DNA from: Dethiobacter alkaliphilus AHT 1
GTDB lineage: Bacteria; Bacillota; Dethiobacteria; Dethiobacterales; Dethiobacteraceae
Length of the DNA stretch: 64,000 nucleotides
Direction: 5' to 3'
Assembly: GCF_000174415.1 (NCBI RefSeq)
Contig: NZ_ACJM01000002.1
Span: forward strand, 62,001 to 126,000
Position 1 is the first letter of the stretch, and the number at the start of each line of letters is the position of its first letter. Under the pieces are notes generated by a model, which was given only the letters and a program-made list of their open reading frames with translations, was not told where the DNA came from and did no database searches. Positions 8,713-51,423 of the stretch are shown here, in pieces. The position numbers were made by a program, and so were the translations under genes.

Positions 8713-10407
8713 TTAGAAGGCAAAGATCACAGGTAACCAGAAGTAAGCAAATAACGTAATCACCGCTATCCCCAGGATGTTTAGCCAGGAGCCGGCCTTT
8801 ACCATTTGGGGAATGGTAATGTAGCCGCTACCAAAGATTACTGCGTTTGGTGGTGTGGCCACCGGCAGCATAAACGCATATGAGGCTGCGGTAGCTGCGG
8901 TAATCATTAAAGCAAAAGGATGAATGGCCATGGCAGCAGCCATTGCCGCCATAATGGGCATCATCATGGAAGTGGTGGCGGTGTTGGAGGTGATTTCCGT
9001 CAGATAAATTACCAGAGCCACAACTGCCAGCACAATCCAAATCATTTGTGCACCTTCAAGAACAGAGAGCTGCATGCCGATCCACTCAGCCAGACCTGAA
9101 TTTGTAAATCCGGCTGCGATGGCAAGGCCGCCCCCAAACAATAACAGGATACCCCAGGGAACCTTAACGGCCGTATGCCAGTCGTTTAAAAACTCTCCTT
9201 TTTTCAGGTTAACGGGAATAAGGAAGGTGATAATAGCCCCTAAAATAGCTATCAGCGCATCATTTATCATGGGGAAATAGTTCTCCAGAACAAAGGAGCG
9301 ACTAATCCAGGCCAGTGCCACAAAGAGAAACACTGCGCCCACCATTTTTTCTTCTCTGGAGATTATGCCAAGCTCGGCCTGTTCCTTACGAATAACTTCA
9401 CGGCCCCCGGGAATCTCTTTAAGTTTGGTGGGATACGCAACCCGGGTCATGTACAGCCAGGCCAAAACCATGAAAATTATAGAAATGGGCATTCCATAAG
9501 CCATCCACTGGGCAAAACCAATGGTCACGCCAAACATTTCCTCAGCTGCTCCGGCAAAGATAATGTTGGGGGGAGTACCAATAAGGGTGGCAACACCGCC
9601 GATGGATGCAGAATAGCCGATACAAAGCATCAGGCAGGTACCGAAATTAAACTTACCCTTACGGACATCAATTCCCTCAATACCCTGCTCCTGGACCAAC
9701 GTAGCCACCTGCAAAATCACAGCAAGACCAATGGGTAGCATCATCATGGTGGTGGCGGTATTGGAAATCCACATGGACAGAAAACCGGTAGCGGCCATAA
9801 AGCCCAGAATAAGCCGGTTGGGGCTGGTGCCGATAAAATTAATAATTGCCAGAGCAATACGGCAGTGCAGATTCCATTTTTCCATGCACACCGCAATCAT
9901 AAAACCACCCATGAACAAAAACACATTAGGGTTAGCATACGGTGCAGTGGTTTCTCCCACAGCCATGGCACCGGTTAATGGAAAGAGTACAATAGGAAGA
10001 AGGGAAGTTACAGGAATGGGAATAGCCTCGGTAATCCACCAGGTGGCAATCCAGGCGGTACTGGCCAGAACACGCTGTGCGTCCACACTCATACCTTCTG
10101 GGGTGGGCATCACTAAGAAGATTATAAAGAGCAGAGGACCTAAGAAAAGTCCGATTCTTTGGCGTGGTCCGTAATCATGACTTACATCCATTCCTTCTTT
10201 AGGGCTGCGGTCTCCTCCGGGTACAATCTCATTTTCATCAATTTCGCAATGAACCTTTTGGGCTAATTCCTTGCGTTCGCTATCCGAATCTGCCAGCATT
10301 AACTGATCTTTGGCTGAAAAATTTAATTTCATCATGTTTTTTGCCTGACGATGCAGATGCCACATATACAGCCAAAAACCTTTTAATCCTTCACTCCGGA
10401 ATGACAT
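8713..10407 (-). CDS. SLC13/DASS family sodium-coupled carboxylate transporter (copy 1)
   Basis: The 564-residue protein has about twelve membrane segments. It carries both DASS hairpin signatures with SNT sodium-site motifs: ISNTATTMMMLPIG in the first half and TSNTATTSMMMPI in the second. The start is the ATG with AAGGAGGTTGATT upstream; an upstream in-frame ATG lacks a ribosome binding site and its extra 29 residues are not shared with the paralogue. The family moves di- or tricarboxylates or sulfate with Na+. An unusual N-terminal cytosolic extension of about 85 residues (LYMWHLHRQAKN, NFSAKDQLMLA) precedes the first helix. The neighbouring gene is a close paralogue. Confidence 0.9.
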   Translation of the reverse strand: MSFRSEGLKGFWLYMWHLHRQAKNMMKLNFSAKDQLMLADSDSERKELAQKVHCEIDENEIVPGGDRSPKEGMDVSHDYGPRQRIGLFLGPLLFIIFLVMPTPEGMSVDAQRVLASTAWIATWWITEAIPIPVTSLLPIVLFPLTGAMAVGETTAPYANPNVFLFMGGFMIAVCMEKWNLHCRIALAIINFIGTSPNRLILGFMAATGFLSMWISNTATTMMMLPIGLAVILQVATLVQEQGIEGIDVRKGKFNFGTCLMLCIGYSASIGGVATLIGTPPNIIFAGAAEEMFGVTIGFAQWMAYGMPISIIFMVLAWLYMTRVAYPTKLKEIPGGREVIRKEQAELGIISREEKMVGAVFLFVALAWISRSFVLENYFPMINDALIAILGAIITFLIPVNLKKGEFLNDWHTAVKVPWGILLLFGGGLAIAAGFTNSGLAEWIGMQLSVLEGAQMIWIVLAVVALVIYLTEITSNTATTSMMMPIMAAMAAAMAIHPFALMITAATAASYAFMLPVATPPNAVIFGSGYITIPQMVKAGSWLNILGIAVITLFAYFWLPVIFAF

Positions 10408-10546
10408 AATCAACCTCCTTTGACTGTTAATTCTTTCACTATTATAGTAATATAAAAAATTCAGACTTATCAATAAAATGGGAAATTTGCTCATATTGTT
10501 CTTTTTAATCTTTTAATATTTAAAATAATTCTAAATACACAGTCAA

Positions 10547-10585: not shown

Positions 10586-12271
10586 TTAAAAGATTATGGG
10601 TAACCAGAAGTAAGCAAACAGTGTAATTACTATTACACCCAAAATATTCAGCCAGGCGCCGGCCTTAACCATTTGCGGGATGGTAATATAGCCGCTGCCA
10701 AAGATTACAGCATTGGGCGGTGTGGCCACCGGCAACATGAAAGCATAAGAAGCGGCGGTAGCAGCAGTAATCATCATAGTAAAGGGAGGAACAGCCATGG
10801 CAGCAGCCATTGCCGCCATAATGGGCATCATCATGGAAGTGGTGGCGGTATTAGAGGTGATCTCCGTCAGATAAATTACCAGTGTTACCACAGCCAGGAC
10901 AATCAAAATCATAGCAGTACCTTCCAAAGCAGACAGCTGCATTCCGATCCACTCAGCCAAGCCTGTGGTGGAAAACCCTGCTGCAATGGCCAGGCCGCCA
11001 CCAAATAACAAAAGAATTCCCCAGGGAACCTTAACCGCAGTGTGCCAGTCGTTTAAAAACTCTCCTTTTTTCAGGTTAACGGGAATGAGGAAGGTGATAA
11101 TAGCCCCTAAGATAGCAATCAAGGCATCATTGATCATGGGGAAATAGGTCTCCAGGATAAAAGAGCGGCTAATCCAGGCCAATGCCACAAAGAGAAAAAC
11201 TCCGGCCACCAATTTTTCTTCTCTGGAGATGGTACCCAACTCAGCCATTTCCGACTGAATTACTTCACGCCCACCGGGAATTTCTTTTAATTTGGTAGGA
11301 TAGGCAACCCGTGTCATATACAGCCATGCAATTAACATGAAGACAACTGAAATGGGCAAGCCGTAAGCCATCCACTGGGCAAAGCCAATGGTAACACCAA
11401 ACATTTCCTCAGCTGCTCCGGCAAAAATAATGTTGGGCGGAGTACCAATAAGAGTGGCCACACCGCCGATGGATGCAGAATAGCCGATACAAAGCATCAG
11501 GCAGGTGCCGAAATTAAACTTACCCTTACGAACATCGATGCCTTCAATGCCTTGTTCTTCAACCAAAGTAGCCACCTGTAAAATCACAGCCAGGCCGATG
11601 GGCAGCATCATCATGGTGGTAGCGGTATTGGAAATCCACATGGACAGAAAACCGGTAGCCGCCATAAAGCCCAGAATAAGCCGGTTAGGGCTGGTGCCAA
11701 TAAAATTAATAATACCCAAAGCAATGCGTGAGTGTAAGTTCCATTTTTCCATACAAACAGCAATCATAAATCCACCCATAAACAAAAACACATTGGGATT
11801 GGCATAGGGGGCAGTCGTATCTCCTACCGCCATGCTGCCGGTCAGAGGAAAAAGTACAATGGGTAACAAGGAGGTGACAGGAATGGGAATAGCTTCAGTG
11901 ATCCACCACGTGGCAATCCAGGCCGTGCTGGCCAATACCCTCTGTGCCTCCGGACTCATGCCTTCAGGGTTAGGCATTATTAAAAAGATAAAAAAGAGCA
12001 AGGGACCCAGAAACAATCCGATTCTCTGCCGCGGACCGTAATCGTGGCTGACATCCATTCCTTCTTTGGGACTGCGATCTCCCCCTGGTAAAACCTCATT
12101 TTCGTCTATACCGTAGTGAGTTTTATCTGCCGGTTCTTTTCGTTCTTCCTCGGATTCTGCCAACATCATTTGCTCTTTGGCAGAAAAGTTTAGTTTCATT
12201 ACGTTTTTTGTTTGTCGATGCAGTTGCCACATATAAAGCCAAAATCCTTTTAGTCCTTCACTCCGAGACAT
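10586..12271 (-). CDS. SLC13/DASS family sodium-coupled carboxylate transporter (copy 2)
   Basis: The 561-residue paralogue is nearly identical to the preceding transporter through the membrane core, including both SNT sites and EITSNTATTSMM. Differences concentrate in the N-terminal cytosolic region and a few loop positions. The ATG start (MSRSEGLKGFW) has AAGGGGGT upstream, and the more distal ATG is not conserved between copies. Each copy has its own terminator and promoter region, so this is a tandem duplication with independent expression rather than an operon. The substrate is unknown; dicarboxylate uptake is the family default. Confidence 0.9.
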   Translation of the reverse strand: MSRSEGLKGFWLYMWQLHRQTKNVMKLNFSAKEQMMLAESEEERKEPADKTHYGIDENEVLPGGDRSPKEGMDVSHDYGPRQRIGLFLGPLLFFIFLIMPNPEGMSPEAQRVLASTAWIATWWITEAIPIPVTSLLPIVLFPLTGSMAVGDTTAPYANPNVFLFMGGFMIAVCMEKWNLHSRIALGIINFIGTSPNRLILGFMAATGFLSMWISNTATTMMMLPIGLAVILQVATLVEEQGIEGIDVRKGKFNFGTCLMLCIGYSASIGGVATLIGTPPNIIFAGAAEEMFGVTIGFAQWMAYGLPISVVFMLIAWLYMTRVAYPTKLKEIPGGREVIQSEMAELGTISREEKLVAGVFLFVALAWISRSFILETYFPMINDALIAILGAIITFLIPVNLKKGEFLNDWHTAVKVPWGILLLFGGGLAIAAGFSTTGLAEWIGMQLSALEGTAMILIVLAVVTLVIYLTEITSNTATTSMMMPIMAAMAAAMAVPPFTMMITAATAASYAFMLPVATPPNAVIFGSGYITIPQMVKAGAWLNILGVIVITLFAYFWLPIIF

Positions 12272-12400
12272 GAGAAACCCCCTTAGTATAAAAATAATTA
12301 CTTTTATTATATTAATTAAAAGATTCACAACAATCAATAATATGTCGAAATTTGTTCATTATGGTCTTATAAATCTTTTAATTTTTCTACATTTTCAAAA

Positions 12401-12475
12401 GAAAGGCACGCTTATTGAAGTTCCCTCAACGCGTGCTTTCACCCTTAGCAGCTTAGCAAAACTGCATTACAATTT
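12401..12475. repeat. Two-copy intergenic repeat, copy 1
   Basis: A GCACGC...GCGTGC hairpin followed by CTTAGCAGCTT-CGCAAA-CTGC-like sequence matches a second copy at 51909-51998. In both copies the hairpin loop contains TTATT and TTCCCTC. Either strand could use the hairpin as a terminator. Confidence 0.6.
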
Positions 12476-12501
12476 TCTGGCAGCAAAAAAAAATAGGCTT
12501 T

Positions 12502-12867
12502 TCAGCCCATTATCATCCCCACTAACCAAATTATAAAAACTGTAAATAAGGCCAGCAAAGACAGCCGGATCACTCTCTGTGGTGAGCGTGATTTTCTTTT
12601 TTGCCATTCTTCCAAAGTAAGCTTACCTACAGCAAAATTATAATCATCCTCACTTAGCAGACTCAGCTTTCTCTTTTGTCCATGGTCATCAATAACAATC
12701 TCTCTGGGATAGGAAGTGGTGAAGTGGTCATCATCTTCCTTTAAACGGCGGCCCGGCCATTTATGATGGCCAAAATCCTGGAGAAAATGCCACTGTTCAT
12801 CAACAATTTTGTACTTTCCCTGCTTTTTTATCTCATTGTATCGATCGTGACATAAATCCTGGTACAT
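12502..12867 (-). CDS. Hypothetical C-terminally membrane-anchored protein
   Basis: The 121-residue protein has a hydrophilic, charged N-terminal part (about 1-95; WHFLQDFGHHKWPGRR, then KLSLLSEDD) and one C-terminal transmembrane segment (SLLALFTVFIIWLVGMIMG). AAGGAG precedes the ATG. It starts 14 nt after the CoA-transferase B gene and is probably co-transcribed with both subunits. I do not recognise the family. The tail-anchor topology would place the soluble part in the cytoplasm. Confidence 0.7.
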   Translation of the reverse strand: MYQDLCHDRYNEIKKQGKYKIVDEQWHFLQDFGHHKWPGRRLKEDDDHFTTSYPREIVIDDHGQKRKLSLLSEDDYNFAVGKLTLEEWQKRKSRSPQRVIRLSLLALFTVFIIWLVGMIMG

Positions 12868-12881
12868 TTTAGGACTCCTTA

Positions 12882-13610
12882 TTAAGCGCCAAATGCTTTT
12901 TTAGCAAAGGCAGGATAAATTTTAGCCACGTTTTCCCGGACAGGTCCCCGCAGCAGTTTCAGTTCATCTTCTGAAGGAGGCTCCGTTGAACCGGCAAATC
13001 CTTCAAACAAAGGCAGTTCAAATCCAGTATTAGCCTGTACTTCTTCAGCAGTATGACCGGGATGTACAGAGTACAACTCCAACAAACCACTATCCTCATT
13101 GCGCACCAAAATAGCCAGCGGTGTTACCAAAAAGTGTAAACCACCGGGACGATGGACGGAGGGAGGAGAGGAGGCACTGCTGGTGGTGAAATCCACCTGC
13201 TCCACAAAGGATTTTGCGGAATGGTCGGTTTTAAACAGTACAACCTTCTTTACCATGTAATAAAGCATAGCCGAGCCTGCCCCGCCGGGCAGCCTGACTT
13301 TCGGCTTATCATAATCGCCGATGGCATGCAAATTAATATTACCCTTACGGTCAATCTGGGCCCCGCTTAAAAAGAAATAATCAAAACGGCCTTTTTGAGC
13401 CATATTAAAAAACTCCATGCTGCCTTCAGAAAAAGGCCACCAATCTTTACTCCCCATAATGTACACATCACTGTCCGGCGCATGGCTTTCCCTGGCCAAC
13501 AGAGCCGCTGTGGAAGGAATGGGGGAGAAAGTACCCACAGCGATGGTTTCCCCGTTTTTTACCTGCCGGGCAATCACTGTGGCCATTAATTCTTCCGTGG
13601 TATAGTTCAC
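12882..13610 (-). CDS. CoA-transferase subunit B (class I family, IpdB-like)
   Basis: The 242-residue protein shows the class I CoA-transferase beta fold pattern: GETIAVGTFSPIPSTAALLARESHAP near the N-terminus, FFLSGAQIDRKGNIN and the glycine-rich LPGGAGSA. Where glutaconate- and oxoacid-type enzymes have the catalytic Glu after the conserved APN-like stretch, this protein reads VYIMGSKDWWPF, with no Glu apparent. That resembles family members working as hydrolases or with a residue from the other subunit. It overlaps the A-subunit stop (ATGA), so the two are translationally coupled. Natural substrate unknown. Confidence 0.85.
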   Translation of the reverse strand: MNYTTEELMATVIARQVKNGETIAVGTFSPIPSTAALLARESHAPDSDVYIMGSKDWWPFSEGSMEFFNMAQKGRFDYFFLSGAQIDRKGNINLHAIGDYDKPKVRLPGGAGSAMLYYMVKKVVLFKTDHSAKSFVEQVDFTTSSASSPPSVHRPGGLHFLVTPLAILVRNEDSGLLELYSVHPGHTAEEVQANTGFELPLFEGFAGSTEPPSEDELKLLRGPVRENVAKIYPAFAKKAFGA

Positions 13611-14437
13611 TTTGCTTCACCTCCGTCACTAAAACGGCGGCAGAATGTCTCAATGTACCGGGCAAATCCTTCCGGATCCTTTGCCGCCCCCTGGTAAGCC
13701 TTCAAAGCTTCTATGTCTGCCCGGTAATAGCTCCCGCAAGCTGTGGGGAAGGCTCCCTGCGGCAATCTCACCACAGCATCAACATGAACACGGCTAACAA
13801 AGTTACCCCGCTGCGAAGACTTTAATTCTTCAGTATCCACAATCTCCTCAGCAGAGATAATCACTTTTTGCGAAGCCCGGGCCAGCAGGGCATCATCTAT
13901 ACTGCTGTTCACAATACAGTTGCCAAAACCATCAGCTTTAAAGGCATGAATTAGGGAAACATCCGGACTAATTGCCGGGACTACCAATACTTCATCATCT
14001 CCATATGGATTTTTAACAATTTTAAAATCAGGACGCACACTGGTATAATCGGTACCAATCACACCCCGCACAGGCATAAACGGAATCCCCATCGCTCCAG
14101 CCTGGAGCGCAGCCAAAAGACCCGGTCAGGTATGATCCAGTACTTTTACCGTACCGGACTGGACACTCTGCCGAAAAGCAGGAGCCATTCCCAACTCTTC
14201 AAAGCCCAATTGAGCCAATTCCACAGAGCGCACCGCGCCGGCGCCAATTAACAAATCGGCAGCAAACCCACCAATGGGTGCCACCACCACATCCAAATCT
14301 TTTACATCACTTAGAATCAACTGGGTAACCAGGCCCACCGGGTTCATGGCCAGCGGTCCGCCACCCAAGCCTAGCTGCATCCCGTCCTGAACCAATGACA
14401 ATGCATCGGAGACGGACACTACTTTATTCGCAGGCAT
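13607..14437 (-). CDS. CoA-transferase subunit A with in-frame UGA codon 104 (candidate selenoprotein)
   Basis: Two pieces of one gene lie in the same frame, separated only by TGA at 14126-14128. The N-terminal 103 residues (LGLGGGPLAMNPVGLV, VVVAPIGGFAADLLIGAGAV) and the C-terminal 172 (LQAGAMGIPFMPVRGVIGTD, ADGFGNC) together form a normal-length class I CoA-transferase alpha subunit. GGAGGTGTTGGA precedes the ATG. The first codon after the gap that could restart (TTG at 14116) has no ribosome binding site. Sixteen nt after the UGA is a perfect 7-bp hairpin fitting bacterial SECIS geometry. The context residues are HT-UGA-PG. A recent nonsense mutation or sequencing error remains possible, but the rest of the gene and its coupled partner look intact. 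Confidence 0.75.
14093..14109 (-). promoter_or_regulatory. bSECIS-like hairpin after the CoA-transferase UGA
   Basis: On the transcript CGCTCCA pairs with TGGAGCG across the loop GGC. The loop begins with G and lies 23 nt after the UGA. The general bacterial SECIS description is an upper stem of at least 4 bp, a small apical loop with G in its first two positions, and a loop about 16-37 nt from UGA. All three hold. The hairpin also encodes ALQAGA, so chance is not excluded. Confidence 0.6.
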
Positions 14438-51141: not shown

Positions 51142-51423
51142 TTAATGCCATTCCACAGAAAGTTTTTTCCACTTAAACAGCTTAGCAACCGAAATGATTA
51201 TCGCTTTTCTTTCTGCCTCTAACTTTTTTGGATAGTGCAACACAACTTCTCCTGTAACAAACTGTTGATAATCTTCCAGATTACCCGGGGGCTCGCCGAG
51301 ATTAATTACCGGCACATCTACAACCCCGGAATGACATCATCCCTTCTTACTATACCTAATGGTGGCATGCCTGCCATTTTCCAATATATACTTAATTGCT
51401 TCTACCCCTATGGTGATTTCCAC
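51142..51423 (-). CDS. Selenoprotein, HesB-like/CC-Se motif family (in-frame UGA codon 29)
   Basis: Reading TGA at 51337-51339 as selenocysteine gives an unbroken 93-residue protein from GTG 51423 (GAGGTGA 7 nt upstream) to TAA 51142. The sequence before is MEITIGVEAIKYILENGRHA. The motif is KKGUCHSG, and the tail VINLGEPPGNLEDYQQFVTG leads to KLSVEWH. This matches my recollection of HesB-like selenoproteins, small proteins with a U-C or C-C pair and a following LGxPxNLEDY segment. Function is unknown; redox or metal(loid) binding is plausible. It lies between arsR and arsC with 46- and 19-nt gaps, so it is part of the arsenic operon. Confidence 0.85.
51294..51314 (-). promoter_or_regulatory. 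Candidate bSECIS hairpin of the ars selenoprotein
   Basis: On the transcript UGCCG pairs with CGGCG (one U-G pair) around an 11-nt loop beginning with G, 27 nt after the UGA. It fits the loose bacterial SECIS description, though the stem is short. Confidence 0.45.

Follow-up and report, generated by a model that had tools for sequence, protein, structure and literature searches.

A predicted selenocysteine-containing family of the CoA-transferase superfamily in Dethiobacter alkaliphilus and other anaerobic bacteria

A two-gene locus in the 64,000-nucleotide stretch of the Dethiobacter alkaliphilus AHT 1 genome analysed here (hereafter, the window) very probably, with a likelihood that we put at roughly 0.92, encodes a selenoprotein: UGA codon 104 of the A subunit gene would be translated as selenocysteine (Sec) by means of SelB, tRNA-Sec and a bacterial SECIS (bSECIS) hairpin, and the product would be a heterodimer resembling IpdAB and AibAB, with a selenolate in the active site. 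As judged by sequence comparison, the locus belongs to a Sec/Cys family within the CoA-transferase superfamily, with the Sec form found in rare anaerobic bacteria and Cys forms in archaea and other bacteria.

Both genes are located on the minus strand, a detail that the preliminary description, otherwise accurate in its account of the gene, had left unstated. The coding sequence of the A subunit (13607-14437), which is class I CoA-transferase-like by its translation, Pfam match, alignments and AlphaFold2 model, starts with an ATG at 14437 preceded by an RBS-like GGAGG and terminates with a TGA at 13609-13607. As originally reported, it is split by a single in-frame TGA at codon 104 (14128-14126), and translation with TGA read as U yields a single protein of 276 amino acids with U104. 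A second start downstream of the UGA, giving two proteins, was considered and rejected: the TTG at 14116 falls within the coding region of a conserved helix, and no start is conserved there. The gene for the B subunit (12882-13610; 242 amino acids) is intact, and its GTG start at 13610 overlaps the stop codon of the A gene (GTGA), so that the proposed coupling of the two genes is plausible. The only Pfam family matched by the two subunits is PF01144 (CoA_trans), with a value of 1.1e-19 for the A subunit. Immediately downstream of the B gene, on the same strand, is an ORF of 121 codons (12502-12867) that has no family match and, among the loci compared, is present in the window genome only; its product contains a C-terminal hydrophobic stretch and is possibly related to the N-terminal extensions of the two DASS-family sodium:anion symporters encoded downstream of it on the minus strand (10586-12337 and 8713-10494), the first of which is possibly co-transcribed with the pair and is not conserved beside the family elsewhere.

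The in-frame TGA recurs in the relatives of this gene. In a protein search of 100 relatives, 11 genomes, including that of the window, matched at 42% identity or above, and all of these contain one in-frame TGA. When 84,980 species genomes were scanned with an alignment in which X was placed at the Sec column, 47 loci were obtained, which added four UGA genes, from two Desulfarculaceae, a 'Desulfovirgula' MAG and an Armatimonadetes-labelled MAG. The resulting 15 species-level genomes, which represent Bacillota, Desulfarculaceae and the one Armatimonadota-labelled MAG, each carry a single in-frame TGA, which invariably falls in one alignment column, within the motif [DE]H[TV]U; the encoded proteins are 40-73% identical to the window protein. 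All 29 other relatives that were read, from Alphaproteobacteria, Alcaligenaceae, Actinomycetota and thermophilic archaea, have a Cys codon (TGC or TGT) in this position. Thus, the comparison of homologues at column 104 that had been suggested at the outset returned Cys or UGA and nothing else, and the column is invariant (Sec or Cys) in the 41-row alignment A2. Distant paralogues, with identity of 35% or less, contain Asn, Ala or Gln in the same column. In the phylogenetic tree, the UGA genes form one clade (support 99/96), with the Cys clades of Pseudomonadota and archaea beside it and the actinobacterial Cys sequences outside. The locus of the Armatimonadetes-labelled MAG (L060, JAIMBK010000039.1) and its neighbours are near-identical in order to those of the Desulfovirgula MAG (L059), so that the former MAG may be mislabelled or the UGA locus may have been transferred recently. 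The family is rare, given that extending the sample to 398 genomes from the phylum added no member; no relatives were found in viral contigs, and a phage collection yielded a single match, at 30% identity, in an unannotated 5-kb record.

An otherwise intact gene interrupted by one TGA could be a pseudogene or the product of a sequencing error, with the TGA representing a nonsense mutation. We consider this explanation extremely improbable and have discarded it because the same TGA column is present in 15 separately assembled genomes, which also disposes of the concern that reads might show a sense codon here, and is occupied by Cys elsewhere; furthermore, the hairpin described below is conserved, and the sequence 3' of the UGA is under purifying selection, with dN/dS values of approximately 0.06-0.23 that, in most pairs, are equal to or below the value upstream of the UGA.

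The preliminary description had noted a perfect hairpin with bSECIS-like geometry past the UGA. This element (CGCUCCA-GGC-UGGAGCG), with a perfect 7-bp stem, maps to 14109-14093, with its GGC loop at 14100-14102, and begins 16 nt after the UGA; at 3 nt for the GGC loop, 7 bp and 23 nt, it falls within the published limits for bSECIS elements (PMC13188914). The hairpin is present in all 15 UGA genes and absent from the Cys homologues, which retain between 1 and 5 of the 7 pairs in the same register. We tested the hairpin by counting pairs at a fixed register, in place of the minimum free energy of the whole segment. Across the 15 UGA genes, Watson-Crick pairing is seen at 101 of 105 positions; under synonymous randomisation (n=2000), the count averaged 44.9 and did not exceed 59. 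Three of the 7 pairs show double changes that preserve pairing (10 cells; C-G/G-C, G-C/A-U and A-U/G-C), and the covariation score of 0.339 was not reached in any of 500 shuffles, with slid registers scoring near zero. The folding energy of the whole 45 nt after the UGA did not differ significantly from that of synonymously randomised sequences (mean z -0.9), and accordingly the claim is based on this particular hairpin in its fixed register. By its conservation and covariation, this hairpin is evidently under selection in the UGA genes.

The Sec-decoding machinery that had been called for in this organism is encoded in the genome: selA (586 bits), selB (389 bits) and a tRNA-Sec with a UCA anticodon were identified. 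SelA and SelB were detected in 13 of the 15 UGA genomes; in the other two (G023, a 75%-complete MAG with locus L063, and G071, with locus L065), which are probably incomplete bins, selA and selB were not detected, and G071 nevertheless has a tRNA-Sec. In the two Desulfarculaceae genomes, no tRNA-Sec was found among the 139 candidates scored out of some 850-900. Of the 13 genomes with Cys-type genes that were tested, eight lack SelA and five possess Sec machinery and yet use Cys in this family. The window also contains the second UGA gene of a recognised selenoprotein type that had been pointed out previously (51142-51423, minus strand; UGA at 51339-51337 within the motif KKGUCHSG); it belongs to the NCBIfam family NF041239, CC/Se motif (seleno)protein, scoring 56.9 bits (cut-off, 40). 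A tRNA-like gene elsewhere in the genome (positions 335-428 of L103, G000:C3:124000-124800; 94 nt) scores 58.5 bits against the tRNA-Sec model and is called tRNA-Cys (GCA) by ARAGORN; it may be a tRNA-Sec-like tRNA-Cys of the selC* type. Second tRNA-Sec-like matches occur in the genomes G002, G012, G098 and G099. That the reading frame remains open through the UGA would also fit insertion of another amino acid, through a reassigned code or a suppressor; this we view as having only a negligible chance of being correct, and it was rejected on the grounds that the A gene itself ends with TGA, the genome encodes selA, selB and the UCA tRNA-Sec, and the aligned residue is always Cys and never Trp or Gly.

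In combining a Sec-UGA and a bSECIS element with Cys homologues, SelA, SelB and tRNA-Sec, the new family agrees with the known prokaryotic selenoprotein families. The 2026 inventory of 119 such families, through the table of which the families of Haft and Tolstoy (2025) were covered as well, contains none with the CoA-transferase fold (PMC13188914). No selenoprotein model in NCBIfam 20.0 matches the A subunit, and text searches of the openly accessible literature retrieved no report of a selenoprotein with this fold. The original remark that no selenoprotein CoA-transferase had been described is thus borne out by the inventory and by NCBIfam.

The AlphaFold2 model of the A subunit (pLDDT 92) places residue 104 at the beginning of a helix (104-116). 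The solved folds that best match the model are those of AibA (top by E-value), IpdA (TMq 0.92) and GctA. In two alignments, Sec104 falls on Glu105 of IpdA, the residue that was changed to Ala in the substrate-complex entry 6coj of IpdAB. The COCHEA-CoA hydrolase IpdAB of Rhodococcus jostii RHA1 and Mycobacterium tuberculosis shares the fold of the window pair and, likewise, the loss of the B subunit Glu; in contrast to IpdA, the window A subunit, at about 29% identity, has Sec (Cys in relatives) in place of Glu105, and no steroid-ring gene context was seen. IpdB has Gly57 in place of the transferase Glu, and, with the short acyl substrates that were tried, IpdAB did not act as a CoA-transferase (PMC5380842). 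The 3-methylglutaconyl-CoA decarboxylase AibA/AibB (5mzw) is also the second sequence match for the B subunit. In AibB, a Cys occupies approximately the column of GctB Glu54, where the window B subunit has Ile51/Met52, whereas the Sec or Cys of the new family is in the A subunit, aligned with a Gly of AibA. The glutaconate CoA-transferase GctAB of Acidaminococcus fermentans (1poi) shares the overall two-subunit fold but differs in both positions: GctB Glu54 corresponds to Met52 of the window B subunit, and GctA has Gln in column 104. Hence, of the features of class I CoA-transferases, the PF01144 fold and the two subunits are present and the catalytic Glu is missing from the B subunit, the latter in agreement with the preliminary description; all B subunits of the Sec clade lack Glu in this column. 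The actinobacterial Cys-type B subunits contain a VEGA motif, which may retain the transferase Glu via a one-residue shift.

The fold class and the selenoprotein assignment that had been advanced for the A subunit thus stand, and the proposed participation of Sec in acyl transfer is held back, given that the closest folds belong to a ring-cleaving hydrolase (IpdAB) and a decarboxylase (AibAB). The position of Sec104 at IpdA Glu105, its location at the N-terminus of a helix and the lack of the transferase Glu in the B subunit suggest that the enzyme is probably an acyl-CoA-processing heterodimer of the IpdAB/AibAB type that employs a selenolate, and not a classical CoA-transferase. Under the mechanism that we propose, SelB and tRNA-Sec would decode UGA 104 as Sec at the direction of the in-CDS hairpin, and the A subunit would pair with the translationally coupled B subunit to form a class I CoA-transferase-fold heterodimer of the branch that includes IpdAB, AibAB and glutaconate CoA-transferase. 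Sec104 would then lie at the N-terminus of the active-site helix, the end of which would favour the selenolate, and would act on a bound acyl-CoA, or on a thioether or C-C bond adjoining the thioester, either by attacking it or by activating an attack on it. This route would replace the glutamyl-CoA chemistry of true CoA-transferases, the B subunit Glu of which is missing here; in the relatives, including some with no Sec machinery at all, Cys would take on this function. From the sequences and the model, we infer read-through in vivo, the A/B heterodimer, the active-site role of Sec104 and an acyl-CoA class of substrate; the nucleophile chemistry attributed to Sec104 has, in our estimate, about an even chance of being right.

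Comparison of the gene neighbourhoods did not reveal a single shared pathway. The Dethiobacter-type loci share genes for adenine deaminase, a flavodoxin-like protein and signalling proteins, on the opposite strand; the Sec-type loci of Desulfarculaceae adjoin acyl-CoA ligase, acyl-CoA dehydrogenase and TRAP genes; and the Cys-type loci of Alphaproteobacteria adjoin genes for acyl-CoA dehydrogenase and a CaiB-type CoA-transferase. Adjacent A/B pairs annotated as 'CoA-transferase' and related to the Cys members are found in the alkene/epoxide plasmids of Nocardioides JS614, Xanthobacter Py2 and Mycolicibacterium chubuense NBB4; they differ from the window pair in that their hosts are aerobic, their neighbours are others and, in the actinobacterial members that were read, Cys replaces Sec. 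In Nocardioides JS614 and Xanthobacter Py2, the pairs adjoin SDR and acyl-CoA ligase genes, as well as genes for a CoA-disulfide-reductase-like flavoprotein or 2-oxopropyl-CoM reductase; related pairs were located at 12001-13721 of locus L130 and 12001-13757 of locus L131, on plasmids pNOCA01 and pXAUT01. The neighbourhoods with acyl-CoA genes favour an acyl-CoA substrate.

The same gene clusters bear on two other views of the enzyme. It could be a genuine CoA-transferase or acyltransferase in which Sec104 forms an acyl-selenoester, or cooperates with a substitute carboxylate, and the acyl group is passed to a second acceptor. Compatible with this possibility are the class I fold, the CoA-transferase family matches of both subunits and the location of the Cys relatives in alkene/epoxide clusters that also encode, next to them, an acyl-CoA ligase, an SDR and a candidate MetE-like CoM-transferase, the corresponding step of ethene metabolism having been attributed to a CoA-transferase (PMC6440738). 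However, the Sec-clade B subunits lack Glu at the transferase position, and the presence of Asn, Ala or Gln at position 104 in same-class paralogues, and of Gln in GctA, implies that this is not a known transferase residue; we therefore treat this possibility as tentative and rather unlikely. More doubtful still is a redox or C-S role, whereby Sec or Cys104 would attack a thioether or another alpha-leaving group of an acyl-CoA and would be regenerated by a disulfide reductase. Redox chemistry is the commonest use of Sec, and a CoA-disulfide-reductase-like flavoprotein adjoins the Cys pair in the alkene plasmids, but no reductase is consistently found beside the Sec-type genes, and the A subunit alignments contain no second conserved Cys or Sec in a CxxU-type motif.

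Most of the known selenoproteins are thiol oxidoreductases or metal binders. A Sec residue standing where an acyl-CoA enzyme has a catalytic acid suggests that selenium is put to another use here. The odds appear evenly balanced that the heterodimer described here represents a new class of selenoenzymes, in which a selenolate within the CoA-transferase fold would perform C-C, C-S or acyl cleavage as part of acyl-CoA chemistry, beyond the customary thiol-redox and metal-ligand roles of Sec; the Cys versions would then perform this step in thermophilic archaea and in the aerobic catabolism of alkenes and acyl-CoA compounds. With standard gene calling, which halts at the UGA, such genes would be truncated or divided. 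For the Cys family, which also occurs in archaea and in alkene and vinyl-chloride catabolic clusters, the invariant Sec/Cys column allows the key residue to be predicted; in particular, that of the 'CoA-transferase' pairs of pNOCA01 and pXAUT01 is predicted to be A subunit residue 104.
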